Shown: positions 24,567-52,642 of the stretch, piece after piece | How the letters are laid out: each line of letters opens with the position of its first letter | How positions within the stretch are numbered: position 1 is the stretch's first letter | NCBI RefSeq assembly: GCF_000024405.1 | Contig: NC_013517.1 | Location: 3,565,989 to 3,629,988 of the forward strand | DNA from: Sebaldella termitidis ATCC 33386 | Lineage (GTDB): Bacteria; Fusobacteriota; Fusobacteriia; Fusobacteriales; Leptotrichiaceae | Direction: 5' to 3' | Length of the DNA stretch: 64,000 nt | Made by a program: the position numbers and the translations under genes | Notes under the pieces: generated by a model | Seen by the model: the letters and a program-made list of their open reading frames with translations, nothing else | Databases searched by the model: none | Told to the model about the DNA's origin: nothing

Positions 24567-25370
24567 TTACAATATTTTTAATGCCGACAAAATTATTGAC
24601 GCTATAAATGTAAGTAAAATCAGTAATGTCGGACTTACTTTTCTGGTTCTTAAAATAGCATACATAAGCATCGTATAGGCAAACGGCAAAATATTAGGGA
24701 ATATTTTATCAAACAGATCGGCCTGTAATGATACTGTTTTTTCTGCATTTACCACTATCTGTGAAACCACTTCTATGTGTACATATGAAGCTATAAGTCC
24801 TCCTATAACTGTCGTCCCCAGTATAGTTGCTGCTTTTGATACTATTTCTGAATTTTCCTTTATTTTTTCTATTGCTCTTATACCTAAGTTATATCCAAAA
24901 TGGGTCCATACAACCCGGAACAAAAATATAACAAAATAAACCATAAAGAATATAATCGGTCCGAGAACACTTCCTTCTTCTGCAAATGATGCAGAAATTC
25001 CGGCTACTATAGGAAGTATTGTAAACCAGAATATGGCATCCCCTATTCCGGCTAAAGGTCCAAACAATGCTACTTTCAGACCTTTTATCAAATCTCTGTC
25101 TTCTCCGCTCTCTTCAAGTGACATCAGCAGCCCCATCAGAAAACCTACCAGATTAGGATGAGTATTTATAAATTCAAGGTTATCTTTCATCGAATTAGAA
25201 ATAGCCTGTTTATCGCCTTTATGTATTTTTTCTATAGTAGGAAGCATAGAGCATGTCCATCCTCCAGCCTGCATTCTTTCATAGTTGAATGATGCCTGCA
25301 GGAAAGATGATCTGAAGCCCAAAAGAGTTATATCCCTCTTTGTAAGAACTTTTTTATTAGATTCCTTCAT
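24567..25370 (-). CDS. PTS mannose-family EIID component
   Basis: Membrane EIID with the conserved opening SFLQASFNYERMQAGGW, the MGLLMSLEE and GPLAGIGDAIFWFT segments, and a hydrophobic C-terminus. EIID with EIIC forms the channel of mannose-family transporters, a family restricted to the Man class. Start ATG at 25370 was chosen because GAGGAG lies 9 bases upstream; upstream ATGs at 25376-25397 lack this spacing. It overlaps the EIIC stop by 14 bases. It is clearly paralogous to the EIID encoded at 26809. Confidence 0.9.
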   Translation of the reverse strand: MKESNKKVLTKRDITLLGFRSSFLQASFNYERMQAGGWTCSMLPTIEKIHKGDKQAISNSMKDNLEFINTHPNLVGFLMGLLMSLEESGEDRDLIKGLKVALFGPLAGIGDAIFWFTILPIVAGISASFAEEGSVLGPIIFFMVYFVIFLFRVVWTHFGYNLGIRAIEKIKENSEIVSKAATILGTTVIGGLIASYVHIEVVSQIVVNAEKTVSLQADLFDKIFPNILPFAYTMLMYAILRTRKVSPTLLILLTFIASIILSALKIL

Positions 25371-26151
25371 TGCCATCATCTCCTCTGTCTCTTGCATTTA
25401 ATCCAGCCTCTTCGATTTTCTTCTGATTAAAATATTCATATATTGCAAATGCTGTTCCCAGCAAAGCTACCGGAAGGAGATTCGAAAATTTTAAGAAAGA
25501 TGCCACTACAAATCCTATTATTAAATATGGTATATATTGTTTCTGAAGCATAACCCTTAACAAAAGCCCAAATCCCACTGCAGGAAGGATACCCCCTGCT
25601 ACTTCAAATCCGTGAGTCAGCCATTCTGGCATACTGTTTACCAGATTCTGCACAGCTTCCTGTGCCACATATGAAGATACGAAAACAACAACCGCATATG
25701 ATATACCTACTATTAATGTGGTAACTAAATTTAAAAAATAAAATTTCTTTATCTCTACGTCTTCTGCATATTTATCCGCTTTTTTCATGAAGAGCGAGAA
25801 TATCGAGTAATAAAATAAGATAATATACTGCATTAAAAAGCTAAACGGAAGTGCTAATCCAATGGCTATTTTCGCATCTACCTTAGCAGTATAAGCTATA
25901 ACCGTGGTCATTACTCCTGCCAAAACAGGGTTAGGCGGCTGTGTTCCTCCCGCCGGAGTCAGTCCGGCAAAAGCAAGTTCTGTCAAAGCACCTGTAAGTA
26001 ATCCAAGCCTTAAATCCCCCAAAATAAGTCCTGTCAGAGTACTTACTATCAATGGTCTAAATATAAATAAGGCCTCAAGCCAAAAATCAATACCAACAAT
26101 AAAAGCCATAACCGCTAAGCATATTCCTTGAAATAAACTTATTTCTAGCAT
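25357..26151 (-). CDS. PTS mannose-family EIIC component
   Basis: Polytopic EIIC with the family signature LTELAFAGLTPAGGTQPPNPVLAGVMTT. Together with EIID it forms the sugar-translocating unit. ATG at 26151 has AGAGGTGG at good spacing; a GTG at 26160 is the alternative. It follows EIIB directly. The amino-sugar role (GalNAc, GlcNAc or a related sugar) is inferred from the divergently transcribed nagA gene. Confidence 0.9.
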   Translation of the reverse strand: MLEISLFQGICLAVMAFIVGIDFWLEALFIFRPLIVSTLTGLILGDLRLGLLTGALTELAFAGLTPAGGTQPPNPVLAGVMTTVIAYTAKVDAKIAIGLALPFSFLMQYIILFYYSIFSLFMKKADKYAEDVEIKKFYFLNLVTTLIVGISYAVVVFVSSYVAQEAVQNLVNSMPEWLTHGFEVAGGILPAVGFGLLLRVMLQKQYIPYLIIGFVVASFLKFSNLLPVALLGTAFAIYEYFNQKKIEEAGLNARDRGDDGNEGI

Positions 26152-26163
26152 ATTATCCACCTC

Positions 26164-26631
26164 TTACACTTTTAGTTTTTTGTCTCCAGGTACATCCTGT
26201 ATATAAATATCTACTCCTTTAGATTCCAGATATTTGATATCATCTCTGTCTTTTTGATCCACATATACTTTCTTGCTGAGCTGCTCTTTCCCCTCAGAAA
26301 AATGCATATTTCCGATATTCACTTCCTTTATAGGAACTCCTCCGTCTACTAGTTTTTTCACTGTTTCCGGAGTTTTACACACTATAAATATTTTCTGATT
26401 AGGCGAAGCTTTATGAATAATGTTAATCGTGTGTTCTATGGTAAAAAATCTGATTCCTACCCCGGAAGATTTAGCAACTACCTCCATTAATTGTTTTTCC
26501 ACATCGCTGTTAGCCGCAACATCATCTACTACCACAATCAGATTTGCACCCAGTGACTTTACCCATGTAACTCCGACCTGTCCGTGGACCAGACGATTGT
26601 CAATTCTTGTTAATAAAATATTAGGTCCCAC
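26164..26631 (-). CDS. PTS mannose-family EIIB component
   Basis: EIIB of 155 residues with active-site His16 in RIDNRLVHGQVGVTWV, the hallmark of this family. It phosphorylates the incoming sugar after receiving phosphate from the operon's EIIA. Translation starts at GTG (26631) after GGAGGAGAGACAA. It is the only EIIB in the operon. A terminator-like hairpin separates it from the upstream IIC-IID pair, so the two halves may be expressed unequally. Confidence 0.9.
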   Translation of the reverse strand: MGPNILLTRIDNRLVHGQVGVTWVKSLGANLIVVVDDVAANSDVEKQLMEVVAKSSGVGIRFFTIEHTINIIHKASPNQKIFIVCKTPETVKKLVDGGVPIKEVNIGNMHFSEGKEQLSKKVYVDQKDRDDIKYLESKGVDIYIQDVPGDKKLKV

Positions 26632-26776
26632 TTGTCTCTCCTCCTTATTTATTGATCTATAAAAACCAGCTTTGGATATTTTTTGCTCCTTTCAAAAAAA
26701 GCTTTATTGAATTTTATCATAAGCTGAATTTTTTAGGATTTGCCGGCTTTTATTTCACAGCCGACAAATCTTAAAA

Positions 26777-26808: not shown

Positions 26809-27624
26809 TTATAATAAACCTATATATCTTCCTATTATACCTACAAGTAAAGTTATTCCTATCAGTAAAAGAGGTGATTTTCCTTTTCTTAACAGGTAGT
26901 ACATAAGAAAAGTGTAAGCTAAAGGCAGCAGTCCCGGCATGATTTTATCCAGAACATCTTCCTGAATTGCCACTTTCGCCTGTCCTGCATTAATTACCAA
27001 AGTCAGATTAAATCTTATATATGTGGCAATTAATCCTCCTACCACAGCAAGACCAAGTATACTTGCAGCTCTTGAGATACTTTGCGTATCCTCATTCAAT
27101 GTTTTCAGCGCACTTACCCCTGTTCTGTATCCATAGTGCATAAGTCCGTATATCAAACCGAAGTGAATTACATTAAAAATCAAAAGGAATACAAACGGTC
27201 CGGCTATACTTCCGTTTATAGCAAGTGCAGAACCTATTCCTGCTGATATTGGAAGAAGCGTAAGCCATATCAGGGCATCCCCTATTCCTCCCAGCGGTCC
27301 CATTGTAGCTATTTTTATACCTCTTATTGTATCTATATTTTCTTTATTTTCCTCCATTGCTATTACTATACCCTCTATAAATGTTACCAGAAAAGGGTGG
27401 GTATTAAAGAACTCCATATGCATCATCATAGACTTTGACATATCGTCTTTGTTTTTATGAATTTTTTTCAGTCCCGGAATTATAGAATATAACCAACCGC
27501 AGGCCTGCATTCTTTCATAGTTAAATGATGCCTGTACGAATAACCCTCTCCAGGCCATTTTATTCAGGTCTTTTGCAGTAATTACCTTTTCTTTTGTCTG
27601 ATCCGCATAAGCATTAGATTCCAT
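26809..27624 (-). CDS. PTS mannose-family EIID component (second copy)
   Basis: 271-residue EIID with GLFVQASFNYERMQACGW and ATMGPLGGIGDALIWLT, paralogous to the EIID encoded at 24567. The start overlaps the EIIC stop by 11 bases with AAAGGAGGAATATAGCG upstream, implying coupled translation. No EIIA or EIIB accompanies this pair, so it probably shares those at 24116 and 26164. A duplicated IIC-IID pair could widen the range of amino sugars imported. Confidence 0.9.
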   Translation of the reverse strand: MESNAYADQTKEKVITAKDLNKMAWRGLFVQASFNYERMQACGWLYSIIPGLKKIHKNKDDMSKSMMMHMEFFNTHPFLVTFIEGIVIAMEENKENIDTIRGIKIATMGPLGGIGDALIWLTLLPISAGIGSALAINGSIAGPFVFLLIFNVIHFGLIYGLMHYGYRTGVSALKTLNEDTQSISRAASILGLAVVGGLIATYIRFNLTLVINAGQAKVAIQEDVLDKIMPGLLPLAYTFLMYYLLRKGKSPLLLIGITLLVGIIGRYIGLL

Positions 27625-45008: not shown

Positions 45009-46240
45009 ATTTTTCCTCCTTGATTTCTATTATAATATTTATTAAGCAGACCTTCTAAAAGCTCCCCTTGAAAATCTGCCGTTTCTTCAGTCTTCTCATT
45101 TTCTATAATACTTCCTTCAATAAAGCATCTGTTATCATGGACAGGAAAGTATTCCCTTAAAAGAAATTCTGTAAATTTTACAAGCCTGAATTCGCCGTAA
45201 ATTCTGGTACCTTCATTTGGTATACTCTCTACTGCTACCGAATAAAATTTTTTTATATTCTTTTTCAGATCATCCAAGGTAAGAGTTTCTGAAAAAACAA
45301 CCGTATAAAACCATCCTGCATAACTGTTATGAATACCATGTGCATCGCTTACCCCGACTATGGGAATTTTCTGTTGTTTTTCCCTGCTGTTATTATAATA
45401 AGCGGTCTGAAGATTGTTTGATTCCGTTTCATGACCACCCAAAAGCTCAAATGCACAAAACGGTTTTTTTTCAAACATGTAGTCTACCAGATTTAATGGT
45501 ACATTATAAATATTTTTTGTTATCCAGAAAGGATGGCAGAATATCGAAAGGCCCCCGGATTCCCTTATTTTCTCAAAACACCATACGCAGGAAGCATAAA
45601 CATATTTATCAATGAATTCCGGAAAATCCTCCAGATTTTGTATAATTTCCTCTACTTCTTTCCGGTAAGTTTCCTCATCCTTCATTTTTTCATTTATACT
45701 TTCCTTACCACCGAAATTAATAATATGTACATAATTATCAGGAGGATGAACCTCTTCTCCGGGAAGTATCAGAAAATCACTTTTTATATTTTTAAAGCTT
45801 TCTACAGCTTCAAGCGAAGCGTTATAATTCCTGTGATCAGTAATTGCTATAAAATCGAATCCCATTTTCCTCATATTAAGAGCCACATATTCCGGACATT
45901 CCAAACCGTCAGACCTGTTTGTATGCATATGCAGATCACCCTTGTAAGGATTTTTATAAAACAAATCCTTATCACAGGCATAAACAGAAAATCCTTCATT
46001 TATTCCGATGTTATCTTTATCTTTTATAATTATTCTGTATTCCTGTTCTTTTTTCAGTTTCAATTCTGTTGATAAAATTCTGTTTTTTGGCTTTAGTGCT
46101 AATATTCTTTTTTCTCCTGTATCCATTCCATATATTTCTACAAAATATTCATTAGAAGTTTCTTTTTCATACAATAATTTTATATTTAAAATCTCTTTTT
46201 TATGTGTTTCAAAAATTTTAGGATAAACATCAAATTTCAT
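45005..46240 (-). CDS. PHP-domain metallohydrolase (CehA/McbA-like) of the phosphonate operon
   Basis: 411 residues. Residues 1-95 are beta-rich and form a separate N-terminal domain. From about 100 there is a PHP metallohydrolase: GDLHMHTNRSDG (His104, His106), FIAITDHRNYN, LPGEEVHPP, IFCHPFWI and VGVSDAHG, the complete set of metal ligands. PHP enzymes cleave phosphoesters or esters. It is tightly coupled (ATGA) to both neighbours between the PLP enzyme and transporter genes, so a role in phosphonate use is likely. Hydrolysis of a phosphonate ester or headgroup to free AEP is a hypothesis. No signal peptide, so cytoplasmic. Confidence 0.8.
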   Translation of the reverse strand: MKFDVYPKIFETHKKEILNIKLLYEKETSNEYFVEIYGMDTGEKRILALKPKNRILSTELKLKKEQEYRIIIKDKDNIGINEGFSVYACDKDLFYKNPYKGDLHMHTNRSDGLECPEYVALNMRKMGFDFIAITDHRNYNASLEAVESFKNIKSDFLILPGEEVHPPDNYVHIINFGGKESINEKMKDEETYRKEVEEIIQNLEDFPEFIDKYVYASCVWCFEKIRESGGLSIFCHPFWITKNIYNVPLNLVDYMFEKKPFCAFELLGGHETESNNLQTAYYNNSREKQQKIPIVGVSDAHGIHNSYAGWFYTVVFSETLTLDDLKKNIKKFYSVAVESIPNEGTRIYGEFRLVKFTEFLLREYFPVHDNRCFIEGSIIENEKTEETADFQGELLEGLLNKYYNRNQGGKI

Positions 46241-47613
46241 CTTATATCATCTCCCGACAATTCTTCACTAAACGCTTCATCTAGAAGTATTACCGCATGA
46301 CTAAGCTCTTCTTTTGTAATTATCAGAGGCGGCATTAATGTAAGGACATTTCCCTGTGATACTTTGAAACTAAGTCCTTTGTCAAGACATCTGTACATTA
46401 TTTTTTCTGCAAGCTCTCCTGCTTTTTCTTTTGTATCCCTGTTTTTTACCAGCTCTACAGCTCCCATTAGTCCTATTACTCTTATATCTCCTATTTTTTC
46501 ATATTTATTATACAATTCTGTCAGCCTTTCAAGAAAAAATCTGCCCATCTTTCTTACATAATTCAAAATTCCGTCATTTTCTATTTTCTCTATCAGGGCT
46601 AATGCTGCAGCACTTCCAAGAGGATTTTTTTCATGGGTAAAATGTCCCAGAGCACTGTCCTGACATATATCCATTTTTTTATCGGCTATTACAGCTGACA
46701 TAGGTATCAGTCCGCCGCCAAGTCCTTTTCCTATCACCAGAATATCAGGCTCTATCCCGTAGTTCTGAAAAGCAAACATTTTTCCTGTTCTGCCGAGTGC
46801 TGTGGGAATTTCGTCCAAAATCATTACTGCATTATATCTGCTGCATATCTCCCTTAATCTTTTGTAATATTCCACAGGAGGAATCTGAACATCTGTACTC
46901 CTCACAGTTTCCATAATTACAGCACATATGTCCCCTTCCCTTTCAATAATATATTCCAAATAATCAAGACACTTAAGCTGACATTGTCCGCAGCTGCCAA
47001 ACATACATCTGTAAGAATTATAAGGCATTATATGCTCTGTTCCGGGCATAAGCGGTCCGGCATTCTTCCTGAAAACACTTTCACCTCCTATTGAAATAGT
47101 GTCCAGTGTTGCTCCATGGAAAGAATCCCATAAAGATATTGTTTTATAGTTGCCGGTATATTTTCTGGCCAGTTTTAATGCAATGCTCATTGAAGCTGCC
47201 CCGCTTGTAGTAAAAAGTGTTTTGTATTCTTTTTCACCCATTGAAGTACATAATTTTTCTGCCAGCTTTACTGCTGCTTCATTTGTATATCTTCTTGGTG
47301 AAAATGAAAGCTTCTCCATTTGTCTTTTTACACTCTCGACTATATCCTCATTGTTATATCCGAGCTGATGCAGGCTGTTTCCATGAAAATCCATGTACTT
47401 TCTGCCGTCGGTATCTTCAATATAAATTCCGTTTACACTTTTTACTACATTCAGACAAGGTGTGGATAATGACTGATGAATAAAATAAGAGCTGTCATCG
47501 TCAAGTATTTTTTGTGTCTCTTTTGATATATTTTTTTTCTGCCATATTTTTCTGTATTCTGAAATATTTATATCCCCTTCTCTTTTAAGTGACTCTGTTA
47601 TTTTTTCCTCCAT
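46237..47613 (-). CDS. Class III PLP enzyme, PbfA-like (1-hydroxy-2-aminoethylphosphonate ammonia-lyase candidate)
   Basis: 458-residue class III aminotransferase-fold enzyme. The PLP Lys is predicted at 296 (VIGKGLGGG) and the pyridine-binding Asp at 267 (ILDEIPT). In phnW-phnX clusters such a gene is known as pbfA, whose product converts (R)-1-hydroxy-2-aminoethylphosphonate to phosphonoacetaldehyde and ammonia, feeding PhnX; that role fits here. Four closely spaced cysteines (203, 208, 211, 215) form a possible metal site. A true transaminase (another omega-amino substrate) is the alternative. The stop overlaps the PHP start; 2 bases separate it from phnX. Confidence 0.75.
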   Translation of the reverse strand: MEEKITESLKREGDINISEYRKIWQKKNISKETQKILDDDSSYFIHQSLSTPCLNVVKSVNGIYIEDTDGRKYMDFHGNSLHQLGYNNEDIVESVKRQMEKLSFSPRRYTNEAAVKLAEKLCTSMGEKEYKTLFTTSGAASMSIALKLARKYTGNYKTISLWDSFHGATLDTISIGGESVFRKNAGPLMPGTEHIMPYNSYRCMFGSCGQCQLKCLDYLEYIIEREGDICAVIMETVRSTDVQIPPVEYYKRLREICSRYNAVMILDEIPTALGRTGKMFAFQNYGIEPDILVIGKGLGGGLIPMSAVIADKKMDICQDSALGHFTHEKNPLGSAAALALIEKIENDGILNYVRKMGRFFLERLTELYNKYEKIGDIRVIGLMGAVELVKNRDTKEKAGELAEKIMYRCLDKGLSFKVSQGNVLTLMPPLIITKEELSHAVILLDEAFSEELSGDDIR

Positions 47614-47615
47614 TT

Positions 47616-48440
47616 TTATTCACTTGTCCTGTCTGTTGTATTTTTCCCAAGCCTTATATTTATTAATTCTATTATATTAAATATTTCCGAAAGATTATCT
47701 ATTGTATAATGTGCCCCGGCTTTAAAATATTCATTTTTCACTTTTATTCTCAAGGCTTTTTTTTCTTCCGCAGACAAACTGTCGAACTCTTCTTCAGAAA
47801 GTCCTGAAAGACTGCTCCCTTCTATTACTCCCACACTCCACACTCCGGCATTTCGTCCTTCTTCTATATCTACAATGGTATCTCCGATTTTCACGGCTTC
47901 CTTTACATTCATTATTTCCAGTTTTATTAGATTTTGAAAAATCATATACGGATACGGTCTGCCGTAATTCCCGATAAGATCAGGTGTTATCCAGAAATCA
48001 GGATTATAACCGTTTTCTCCGGCTACTCTGGTTACTATATCCATCATATTTTTGGTATAGCCTGTTGTAGAGCCGATTTTGTAGCCTTTATTTTTAAGCT
48101 TTTCTATTATTTCCGCATTATTTCCAAACGGTTTGCTGTATTTATCAATTATTTCAAGAACAGCCGGCTCAAAGCTCTTATATAATTCATCTATATCAGA
48201 TTTTTCCGGCTCTTTACCATATACCTCTTTCCATTTATCCCTTACTCTTGAAAAAGCCAGAATTTCCTTTATGTGGTCATATTTAAGCATTCCCATTGGC
48301 TTTCTTGCTTCTTCTACAGTGATTTCCACTCCTTTTTTTGAAAAAATAGAAAGAAATACGTTTACTGGCGAAAAGCTGCCGTAATCTATCACTGTTCCTG
48401 CCCAGTCAAAAATTAATGCCTTTATCTTTAGTTCTTCCAC
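47616..48440 (-). CDS. phnX: Phosphonoacetaldehyde hydrolase (phosphonatase)
   Basis: HAD-family enzyme that cleaves the C-P bond of phosphonoacetaldehyde to acetaldehyde and phosphate. The nucleophile is Asp12 (FDWAGTVIDYG); the Schiff-base Lys is Lys53 in RKPMGMLKYDHI, the same position as in the Bacillus enzyme. Also visible are STTGYTKNMMD and GDTIVDIEEGRNAGVWSVGV. 274 residues is normal. Translation starts at GTG (48440) after GGAGGTATTAGG and overlaps the phnW stop by 13 bases. Confidence 0.95.
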   Translation of the reverse strand: MEELKIKALIFDWAGTVIDYGSFSPVNVFLSIFSKKGVEITVEEARKPMGMLKYDHIKEILAFSRVRDKWKEVYGKEPEKSDIDELYKSFEPAVLEIIDKYSKPFGNNAEIIEKLKNKGYKIGSTTGYTKNMMDIVTRVAGENGYNPDFWITPDLIGNYGRPYPYMIFQNLIKLEIMNVKEAVKIGDTIVDIEEGRNAGVWSVGVIEGSSLSGLSEEEFDSLSAEEKKALRIKVKNEYFKAGAHYTIDNLSEIFNIIELINIRLGKNTTDRTSE

Positions 48441-49540
48441 CCTAATACCTCCGTTGTATATTTCTCTATACTTTTCAGCAGTTTTTCCATATCTTCTTTT
48501 TTTATATCACCGATATTTCCTATTCTAAAAATGTTCTTGCCGGATATACTGCCGGGATATATTACAAATCCCTCTTTTTTTAAAAAATCATAAAAATCCT
48601 TAAAACTATATTTTTCATTTTTAGGATTTTGAAATGTAGTAATAACAGGTGACTGAATATTTTTAGGAATCAGGCATTTGAACCCGAGTTTTTCCATTCC
48701 TTCTGACAATATTTTCTGATTTTCACTGTATCTTTTGTATCTTTTGGTGATCCCGCCCTCATCTTCCAATTCTTCCAGTGCCTGACAAAATGCTCTTACC
48801 ACATGTGTAGGAGAGGTATATCTCCATTTCCCGCAATCTTTTTCCATCACTTCCCACTGATCGTATAAATCCAGCGACAGGCTGTGAGATATATTTTTGC
48901 ATTCTTTGATTGCTTCTTTTTTGCAGATTATAAATGAAAAACCGGGGACACCCTGTATACATTTATTTGAACTGCTTACAAGAAAAGCTATATTATTTTT
49001 TTCAAAATCTATTGGAATACCTCCGTAACTGCTCATCGCATCTACCAGAAATACCCTGTTGTTTATTTTACAAAGCTCGCCGATTTCATCAATATTATTC
49101 AGAATCCCAGTTGTTGTTTCACAGTGTACCAGTACTATATGCGTTGCCATACTGTTTTCTATTACTTTTTTAGCTGACTTTTTATCTATACATGTATCAT
49201 ACGAAAATTCGATATATTCATAATTTTTATTTGCTATATCTGCTATTTCTTTTATTCTTTTTCCATAAACGCCGTTTGACAAAATAAGAAGCTTATCTTC
49301 ATCCTTTATTACACTTCCGATCATTGCCTCTACCCCGAATGTCCCGCTTCCCTGCATTGGAACAGCGGTATATACATCAGTATCTGCCCCTCCTGCTTCA
49401 AGAATTTTTTTTCTCATATTCTGAACCAGTTCCTTATACTCATTATCCCAAGTACACCAGTCTTTAAGCATGACATTTTTTACTCTGCTGCTTGTGGATA
49501 AAGGTCCCGGCGTAAGCAGCTTATAATGCTTTTCTTCCAT
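48428..49540 (-). CDS. phnW: 2-aminoethylphosphonate:pyruvate aminotransferase
   Basis: PLP fold-type I class V transaminase (370 residues) that converts 2-aminoethylphosphonate and pyruvate to phosphonoacetaldehyde and alanine. The PLP Lys is Lys193 in VSSSNKCIQGVPG; LLTPGPLSTS at the N-terminus and MQGSGTFGVEAMIGS are characteristic. As the first gene of the operon it sits about 75 bases downstream of a pair of TGTTTAC repeats. ATG follows GGAGAAGAAT. Confidence 0.95.
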   Translation of the reverse strand: MEEKHYKLLTPGPLSTSSRVKNVMLKDWCTWDNEYKELVQNMRKKILEAGGADTDVYTAVPMQGSGTFGVEAMIGSVIKDEDKLLILSNGVYGKRIKEIADIANKNYEYIEFSYDTCIDKKSAKKVIENSMATHIVLVHCETTTGILNNIDEIGELCKINNRVFLVDAMSSYGGIPIDFEKNNIAFLVSSSNKCIQGVPGFSFIICKKEAIKECKNISHSLSLDLYDQWEVMEKDCGKWRYTSPTHVVRAFCQALEELEDEGGITKRYKRYSENQKILSEGMEKLGFKCLIPKNIQSPVITTFQNPKNEKYSFKDFYDFLKKEGFVIYPGSISGKNIFRIGNIGDIKKEDMEKLLKSIEKYTTEVLGWKN

Positions 49541-51416: not shown

Positions 51417-51445
51417 TTGATATAACTGGATACTTATAGTATAAT
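51417..51445 (+). promoter_or_regulatory. Promoter of the Y-RNA-like array
   Basis: TTGATA (51417-51422), 17-base spacer, TATAAT (51440-51445). The predicted start, about 51452, falls right at the first structured element, as expected for a non-coding RNA promoter. Confidence 0.8.
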
Positions 51446-51454
51446 TATTAATAT

Positions 51455-51567
51455 AGACAGCTAACAGCAACTAACTTGATATCCGAGCTGAAGGTGCAGG
51501 TGTGAATCCTGCCGTCAAAAGATGTAGCTTAAATAATAGAGTGTCAGCATTCACAAGACTGCTGTCT
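51455..51567 (+). ncRNA. Y-RNA-like element 1 with tRNA-mimic module (113 nt)
   Basis: Closing stem AGACAGC (51455-51461) / GCTGTCT (51561-51567), then the constant ACAGCA strand. Inside: anticodon-like stem GCTGA (51487-51491) / TCAGC (51544-51548); T arm GCAGG-TGTGAAT-CCTGC (51496-51512); short acceptor-like hairpin CGTC-AAAA-GATG (51513-51524); UA at positions equivalent to U8-A9; D arm GCTT/GAGT (51527-51530, 51539-51542; two G-U). The order is T arm, acceptor, D arm: a circularly permuted tRNA, as in bacterial YrlA Y RNAs. Pairings were found by hand; no covariance model was run. Confidence 0.8.
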
Positions 51568-51573
51568 GAAAAT

Positions 51574-51686
51574 AGATAACTAACAGCACATATTTTCTAA
51601 GGGATTAAAGGGTCGCAGGTTCAAGTCCTGCCAGTTGGAAACAACTGTAGCTCAGAGAAAGAGCATTTAATGAAAAACAGTTATCT
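51574..51686 (+). ncRNA. Y-RNA-like element 2 with canonical tRNA-mimic module (113 nt)
   Basis: Closing stem AGATAACT (51574-51581) / AGTTATCT (51679-51686). Anticodon-like stem ATTAAA (51604-51609) / TTTAAT (51666-51671); T arm GCAGG (51615-51619), loop TTCAAGT, CCTGC (51627-51631); acceptor hairpin CAGTTG-GAAA-CAACTG (51632-51647), i.e. the two acceptor strands joined by a GAAA tetraloop; U48-A49; D arm GCTC (51650-51653) / GAGC (51661-51664). Every stem is perfectly paired and the T loop is a normal tRNA T loop. The length equals element 1 although most stem sequences differ. It begins 6 bases after element 1. Confidence 0.85.
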
Positions 51687-51693
51687 GAAATAT

Positions 51694-51745
51694 AGACGAC
51701 TTACAGCAAACCAAATTTGAATATTCCAAATTCTTAGGGTCGTCT
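51694..51745 (+). ncRNA. Y-RNA-like element 3, short form without tRNA module (52 nt)
   Basis: Closing stem AGACGAC (51694-51700) / GTCGTCT (51739-51745), followed 5' by TTACAGCAA and 3' by GAAAT, matching elements 1 and 2. The interior has only a simple hairpin (AATTTG / CAAATT) in place of the tRNA-like module. It may be a minimal protein-binding form. It begins 7 bases after element 2. Confidence 0.7.
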
Positions 51746-51778
51746 GAAATAATAATACTTAATAAGTTTCTAAAAATA

Positions 51779-51811
51779 AAAAATTGCTCCTGTAATTCCA
51801 GAGCAATTTTT
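51779..51811. terminator. Bidirectional terminator after the RNA array
   Basis: AAAAATTGCTC (51779-51789) pairs perfectly with GAGCAATTTTT (51801-51811). It ends the RNA array on + and the Cof phosphatase gene on minus. Confidence 0.85.
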
Positions 51812-51826
51812 CTTTTATATTTTCTG

Positions 51827-52642
51827 CTAAAATTTTATAAAATGTTCTATAGCTTCAGTCAAGCCGTCTGCATTGTTATCTTTTTCCGTTACATAATCCG
51901 CTGATTTCTTTACATGCTCGTAAGCATTCTGCATTGCAGCACTATACCCAGATTCCTTGAGCATTTCTATGTCATTTTCCCCGTCGCCTATTGAAAGTAT
52001 TTCTGATAAAGGTATTCCCGAATATTCAGAAAACCACTTTAAAGCAACAGATTTATCAGAACCTGCCGGTACTACTTCAAGAAGAAAATCCAGTGAAAAC
52101 ATTGTCTTTATATCATTGCTCACAGCACTTTCCTGTAATTTAGCCGCTGCTGTTTCCAGATTTTCTCTTTTTCCCACCAGCAGTATTTTCATGAAATCAA
52201 TATCTTTATAATCATTTATATCCTTTATAAATACCTTTGTCTGATGGTTGCTTGAAACCTCCACTTCGAGCTCTTCGTTATCCTGTGTTATATATATGAG
52301 ATTTTTTTCATGAATACAAAAACTAATATCTATTTTATTTTTCATAATGATATCATATACTTCTTTTATAATATTAAAATCCAGTTTTTTTACATAAAGA
52401 TTTTTTCCTTCCTTTATATCATGAATTATTCCGCCGTTATATGCTATAAAGTATCTTATCTTATCATCAAGTCCTGCTTTTTTTATAAGTCCCAGCATTC
52501 CAAAAGCAGGTCTGCCTGATGCAAATAAAAATTCTCTTCCGCTTTCCAATACTCTTTTTACAGTTGCACTGTTTTTTTCCGATATTGCTTCATTTAATCC
52601 CAGACTTGTTCCGTCCATATCAGCTACTACCATTTTTATCAT
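51827..52642 (-). CDS. Cof-type HAD-IIB phosphatase
   Basis: 271 residues with HAD motif I VADMDGTSLG, motif II FASGRPAFG, the Lys in the DKSVALKWF stretch and motif IV SIGDGENDIEML. The cap insert between motifs II and III is of the IIB type. These cytoplasmic enzymes dephosphorylate sugar phosphates, flavin precursors or similar small molecules; the substrate cannot be told from sequence. ATG follows AAGGAGAGTAAACA. It stands alone, convergent with the RNA array. Confidence 0.88.
   Translation of the reverse strand: MIKMVVADMDGTSLGLNEAISEKNSATVKRVLESGREFLFASGRPAFGMLGLIKKAGLDDKIRYFIAYNGGIIHDIKEGKNLYVKKLDFNIIKEVYDIIMKNKIDISFCIHEKNLIYITQDNEELEVEVSSNHQTKVFIKDINDYKDIDFMKILLVGKRENLETAAAKLQESAVSNDIKTMFSLDFLLEVVPAGSDKSVALKWFSEYSGIPLSEILSIGDGENDIEMLKESGYSAAMQNAYEHVKKSADYVTEKDNNADGLTEAIEHFIKF

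Follow-up and report, generated by a model that had tools for sequence, protein, structure and literature searches.

Bacterial Y RNAs, such as the Deinococcus Y RNA and Salmonella YrlA (RF02553), are encoded beside a gene for a protein of the Ro60 fold (Rsr/Ro60; TROVE, PF05731). In the rsr-yrlBA-rtcBA RNA repair operon of Salmonella, a Ro-like protein, Y-type RNAs and RtcB occur together, and a decoy role of YrlA has been discussed (PMC7790460). The noncoding regions with the highest transcription in the Listeria phage CKA15, three in number, are located <2 kb upstream of the DUF2828 gene CKA15_055, which the authors likened to Rsr, suggesting Y RNAs; coordinates were given for only one of the three regions, the most transcribed one (26236-26727), and purified particles of the phage contained the DUF2828 protein (PMC12282133). 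The Class I RNAs of Dictyostelium (RF01414), reported as unique to dictyostelids, are 42-65 nt long, present in many copies, and closed by a short stem of variable sequence; they start with AAG, end with CUGU, carry an 11-nt motif (CCUUACAGCAA) next to the 5' stem strand, and have a variable interior. Their promoter element DUSE lies about 60 nt upstream, the RRM protein Rnp1A binds them directly, and a Ro-type partner was not reported (Kjellin 2021, PMC7919456). They have been described as linked to the multicellularity of Dictyostelia.

The window analyzed here, a stretch of 64,000 nucleotides from the genome of Sebaldella termitidis ATCC 33386 (4.49 Mb, three contigs), contains a DUF2828 gene followed by a promoter, three RNA elements and a terminator-like inverted repeat (Table 1). 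This array very probably codes for three small noncoding RNAs which are Y-RNA-type partners of the neighboring Ro60-like DUF2828 protein, and which are cut apart from one transcript. The initial annotation, made from the sequence alone, had noted the promoter, three consecutive elements whose closing stems differ in sequence but keep their pairing, and constant parts flanking the stems, all of which were confirmed. The closing stems measure 8, 9 and 10 bp in elements 1, 2 and 3, respectively; the constant parts are (U/A)ACAGCA, just within the 5' strand, and a 3'-terminal UCUGAAA. In a second genome of the genus (G001), both promoter hexamers and the 17-nt spacing are preserved while the spacer sequence has changed; one pair of the acceptor-like hairpin of element 1 is G-U in the window and G-C in G001. 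Identity between the two genomes amounts to 93% for the array (267/287), as compared to 88% for the DUF2828 gene and 78-80% for the flanks. As to the terminator, which had been called perfect, the inverted repeat followed by T is present, but its 11-nt loop is outside the definition used by the terminator scanner, which missed it; G001 has a different but equivalent hairpin and T run at this position. The repeat is probably shared with a convergent gene (51827-52642). A third, distant genome (G055) contains a single element upstream of its DUF2828 gene, with the stem ACAGAACUUA/UAAGUUCUGU and the motif ACAGCAA.

Table 1. Features of the DUF2828 locus and its RNA array (positions refer to the window)
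Feature	Position	Strand	Details
DUF2828 (+DUF7788/vWA) gene, 457 aa	49993-51366	+	Pfam PF11443, 97 bits; PF25043, 133 bits
Promoter of the array	51417-51445	+	TTGATA-17-TATAAT; 11/12 consensus positions matched
RNA element 1, ~115 nt	51454-51568	+	Closing stem UAGACAGC/GCUGUCUG; motif UAACAGCAA
Element 1, degenerate tRNA-like T arm	51496-51512	+	
Element 1, acceptor-like hairpin	51513-51524	+	
RNA element 2, ~115 nt	51573-51687	+	Closing stem UAGAUAACU/AGUUAUCUG; motif AACAGCA; tRNA mimic within
Element 2, circularly permuted tRNA-like module	51604-51671	+	51604-51609 pairs with 51666-51671 (AUUAAA/UUUAAU)
Element 2 module, first arm: T arm	51615-51631	+	
Element 2 module, second arm: acceptor	51632-51637/51642-51647	+	GAAA cap
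Element 2 module, third arm: D arm	51650-51664	+	
RNA element 3, 54 nt	51693-51746	+	Closing stem UAGACGACUU/GGGUCGUCUG; motif CUUACAGCAA; without tRNA mimic
Terminator-like inverted repeat	51779-51789/51801-51811	+	11-bp stem, 11-nt loop, then T

The DUF2828 protein of the window belongs to PHROG 850 ('RNA-binding protein') and is not matched by the TROVE HMM (PF05731). When its AF2 model (pLDDT 89.4) was compared with the PDB by Foldseek, the best 11 matches were all Ro60, Rsr or TROVE structures, including those of phage Ro60 (E 5e-8 to 2e-6), with 11-14% identity, a probability of 1.00, and TM scores of 0.4-0.6 over the full length. The modeled structure supports a Ro60 fold, composed of a helical-repeat ring and a vWA domain, and bears out the earlier description of the protein as Ro-like. 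TROVE genes were absent from all 23 DUF2828 genomes searched, i.e., the two families did not co-occur. Viral relatives of the protein include giant viruses. DUF2828 genes were also observed on contigs of two Asgard MAGs, assigned to Lokiarchaeota (L022) and Heimdallarchaeota (L082), where binning errors are possible; the Lokiarchaeota contig carries one element with a permuted tRNA mimic. In the window, a minus-strand cluster adjoining the DUF2828 gene (46237-49540), comprising a class V aminotransferase gene (48428-49540) and an ORF for a HAD-like hydrolase, is suggestive of 2-aminoethylphosphonate breakdown; a link to the array is not visible.

DUF2828 was detected by tblastn in 682 phage records. 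Viral contigs were not matched by the window protein as a single-sequence query, so that an alignment query was needed, and an archaeal-MAG query, used for more distant DUF2828 virus contigs, returned two contigs. In a scan of 171 DUF2828 loci, of which 8 came from phages and another 160 from contigs of bacteria and viruses, 332 elements consisting of a closing stem and CAGCAA were found on the gene's strand in 138 loci, among them 69 of 80 bacterial and 58 of 80 viral contigs; the scan found none in the other 33 loci. The elements are mostly 45-75 nt long, and often 80-135 nt when a T arm is contained. Their position peaks just upstream of the DUF2828 gene, most lying within about 750 bp, and many follow each other in tandem with gaps of 0-10 nt. 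CAGCAA together with the closing stem is the signature of the family, and the array form is common in it. The proposal of a polycistronic array of a Y-RNA-type family is supported by this linkage across loci, with refinements regarding Rfam membership, signature and frequency of arrays. No Rfam family covers the elements at threshold.

ACAGCA occurs 544 times on the gene's strand of the 171 loci, and a matching stem goes with 247 of these occurrences; the corresponding figures are 17 of 182 for the opposite strand and 12% for anagram 6-mers. Among 58 short elements, Sebaldella being left out, covariation in the closing stem amounted to 172 two-sided changes (47.9 in shuffles) with a score of 0.878 (0.11-0.21 for slid controls), a test which is partly circular because these elements were picked for having a stem; the strand and anagram comparisons, and the held-out test described below, are free of this circularity. 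The initial claim of selected RNA structure was upheld for the stem with ACAGCA, which is above the strand and anagram controls. Fold energies relative to shuffles were favorable for elements 2 and 3 (z -2.9 and -3.4, respectively), but the fold energy of element 1 alone was no better than that of shuffles (z -0.8).

The covariance model R1, built from the 58 short elements without Sebaldella, identified element 3 of the window (27.9 bits, E 1.1e-4) as its sole match with E<=1 in the whole genome. When R1 was applied to 19 bacterial genomes (2-9 Mb) whose loci were absent from the training set, 13 of 17 hits with E<=0.01 were located <=2.5 kb upstream of a DUF2828 gene and on its strand. Covariance modeling, suggested along with the original reading, recovered element 3 of the array and DUF2828 loci in held-out genomes, and homologous elements do occur beside other DUF2828 genes. 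R1 is a short model, with chance scores of up to 31.9 bits in 60 AT-rich Fusobacteriota where DUF2828 is not nearby; for this reason, lone R1 hits in AT-rich genomes prove nothing. Hits distant from the DUF2828 gene were seen in three genomes having such a gene, namely G071:C366:92527-93444 (+), where they form a close pair, G078:C15:51192-51243 and G065:C27:76849-76898, and may be further copies or chance matches.

Close linkage to the gene, mostly on its upstream side, might also be expected of cis-acting elements, i.e., of leader or trailer structures controlling DUF2828 expression or of autoregulatory binding sites on the gene's own mRNA. We consider such a role improbable, because the elements occur both upstream and downstream of the gene, form arrays with a promoter and terminator of their own, and are also found far off in phage tRNA clusters, on the same strand; moreover, a leader does not need tRNA mimicry.

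Mimicry of tRNA is most evident in element 2. Rotated to normal order, its module was called a tRNA by ARAGORN with each of four arbitrary anticodon loops, compared to none of 200 shuffles; in the same rotation test, the module of phage Finnry was called a tRNA, and that of phage CL1 was not. The Bacillus subtilis phage FADO, the E. coli phage CL1, the mycobacteriophage Finnry and some of the bacterial loci show this order of arms as well. A permuted tRNA-like module is a trait of YrlA; within the array it is present in element 2, degenerate in element 1, and absent from element 3. Element 2 matched the YrlA model (RF02553) with 40.8 bits (E 1.3e-7), below the gathering threshold of 69 bits, whereas elements 1 and 3 were not matched by this model; the best score among the relatives was 49.9 bits. 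The comparison with Rfam Y RNAs proposed initially hence yielded a sub-threshold similarity, but no member at the curated thresholds. The family resembles the bacterial Y RNAs in its location beside a gene for a protein of predicted Ro60 fold, its closing stem, the permuted tRNA-like module, and RtcB as a frequent neighbor. It differs from them in that the partner is DUF2828 and not TROVE as judged by HMM, in the CAGCAA beside the closing stem, in the tandem arrays, in scores below Rfam thresholds, and in the many members of about 55 nt without a tRNA part. Nine TROVE loci of Chloroflexota, analyzed for comparison, carry tRNA-like RNAs, but a consistent stem+CAGCAA element was not found in them.

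Genes for RtcB RNA ligase adjoin 38 of the 80 bacterial DUF2828 genes, 35 of them directly downstream. Beside the DUF2828 gene of the window there is no rtcB; the RtcB genes of this genome are located elsewhere. At 12 bacterial loci (e.g., L053, L057, L026 and L074), a divergent gene for a WYL regulator, the elements, DUF2828 and RtcB follow in this order, an arrangement reminiscent of RNA repair operons, but with a regulator of a new type. It parallels the Salmonella rsr-yrlBA-rtcBA operon (PMC7790460), from which it differs in the protein family, in having often a WYL protein instead of RtcR as regulator, and in that the RNAs usually precede the Ro-like gene.

The mimicry, the frequent location in tRNA clusters, the RtcB genes next door in relatives, and the decoy role discussed for YrlA (PMC7790460) could alternatively indicate RNAs that act on tRNA metabolism, as decoys or regulators, by binding a protein other than DUF2828, for example RtcB or an anticodon nuclease, and that share the locus with DUF2828 by chance. 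This is unlikely, given that a T arm is contained in only 44-45 of the 332 elements, most being without a tRNA part, and that the constants of the family are the stem, CAGCAA and the DUF2828 neighbor, also in viruses without an adjacent RtcB. Decayed or chance inverted repeats without function might be suspected from the fold energy of element 1, which is at the level of shuffles, and from its degenerate tRNA mimic. They are a highly implausible explanation, however, since conservation between the two species is higher in the array than in the gene, and since R1, to which Sebaldella did not contribute, has its best match of the entire genome in element 3. Among other types of elements, a riboswitch or leader and toxin-antitoxin RNA repeats were considered and dropped, as were a retron RNA, there being no reverse transcriptase gene in the neighborhood, and a CRISPR-like array, the variable part being inside each stem.

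Expression data for a related phage locus are consistent with the interpretation of the elements as Y-RNA-type partners of DUF2828. The stretch upstream of CKA15_055 contains three SigA-type promoters, one of them just before an array of three elements (CKA15 25289-25553). Since coordinates are available for only one of the three highly transcribed regions (PMC12282133), we infer, rather than read from the data, that this array is very probably another of them. A second SigA-type promoter precedes a ROOL RNA (RF03087) scoring 90.1 bits, with a cut-off of 99.1, at CKA15 26195-26746, which corresponds to positions 1470-2021 of the Listeria phage AG20 locus (L014); the most transcribed region at 26236-26727, left unidentified by the authors (PMC12282133), is most likely this ROOL RNA. 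The third promoter precedes a noncoding region (L014:1007-1340; CKA15 about 26876-27212) that is a candidate for an abundant phage RNA. The CKA15 RNAs resemble the present family in being highly transcribed upstream of a DUF2828 gene, but the study did not define a sequence family, motif or structure (PMC12282133). As the CKA15_055 protein is present in phage particles, it might enter the host together with the phage DNA or otherwise during infection.

Similarity to the Class I RNAs of Dictyostelium comprises the size, the variable closing stem, the CCUUACAGCAA-type motif by the 5' strand, the AAG start, the CUGU end, the variable interior, and the occurrence in many copies. Element 3 has ACUUACAGCAA (10 of 11 motif positions), a 10-bp stem, CUGA and a length of 54 nt; its score with the RF01414 model was 23.9 bits (E 0.046), not reaching the gathering threshold of 41.5 bits. 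The Dictyostelium model was then run on whole phage genomes as an independent check. In eight phages, its 15 best hits (E<=0.05) were all on the DUF2828 strand, 14 of them within about 1.1 kb of the DUF2828 gene and one about 4 kb upstream. Fifty further DUF2828 virus records yielded 29 hits, 28 of which were on the strand of the gene; 16 of the 29 were within 2 kb of DUF2828, where 4.3% would be expected (binomial p 5e-15). The distant hits examined, which are on the same strand, lie in or near tRNA clusters of the phages and resemble full members of the family. The best score among the virus records was 36.1 bits, so that none passes the cut-off, and in G000, G001 and G055, three bacterial genomes searched in full, the model gave noise. 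Because RF01414 also responds at such E-values in some control genomes, it is the position and strand of the hits, and not their E-values, that carry the argument. The Class I RNAs are unlike the family described here in being eukaryotic, in the DUSE promoter, a eukaryotic element that would not be expected in bacteria, and in Rnp1A as binder. That they are eukaryotic members of a phage and bacterial family of Ro partners, with a Ro60-like DUF2828 protein as the missing core partner, is a proposition to which we would give even odds.

From these observations, we infer how the array RNAs might be processed, bound and used. The three RNAs would be transcribed together and then cut into separate RNAs. 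The variable closing stem and the adjoining CAGCA(A) are proposed to form the binding site of the DUF2828 ring, and the interior would act as a variable effector: element 2 holds a permuted tRNA mimic and element 1 a degenerate version, while the interior of element 3 is a short, AU-rich loop. In the manner described for Rsr and its Y RNA, gating or tethering of the Ro-like ring is the probable task of the RNA, in the service of RNA quality control or of tRNA repair. The RNA may also guide a nuclease or ligase to RNA that has been damaged. The tRNA mimics may double as decoys for tRNA-cutting nucleases, which in phages could be host anticodon nucleases.

Ro-like annotations in phages and a suggestion of Y RNAs are already known; apparently new are the RNA family, its signature, the arrays, the linkage to RtcB, and the match to Class I RNAs. 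A prior description of the family was not found in the literature searched, which included few subscription papers, and an earlier one may exist. The elements and the DUF2828 protein would constitute a second Ro-RNA system that is widespread and clearly marked by its sequence signature, with which the RNA partners of hundreds of phage and bacterial DUF2828 genes could be found with a simple model. The association of the RNAs with RtcB-type RNA repair and with phage tRNA clusters suggests a function in the protection or repair of tRNA during infection. Besides, a testable answer is offered as to the nature of the Dictyostelium Class I RNAs, and partner RNAs are predicted for the DUF2828 proteins of giant viruses as well as for those of plants, in which the domain has been reported.
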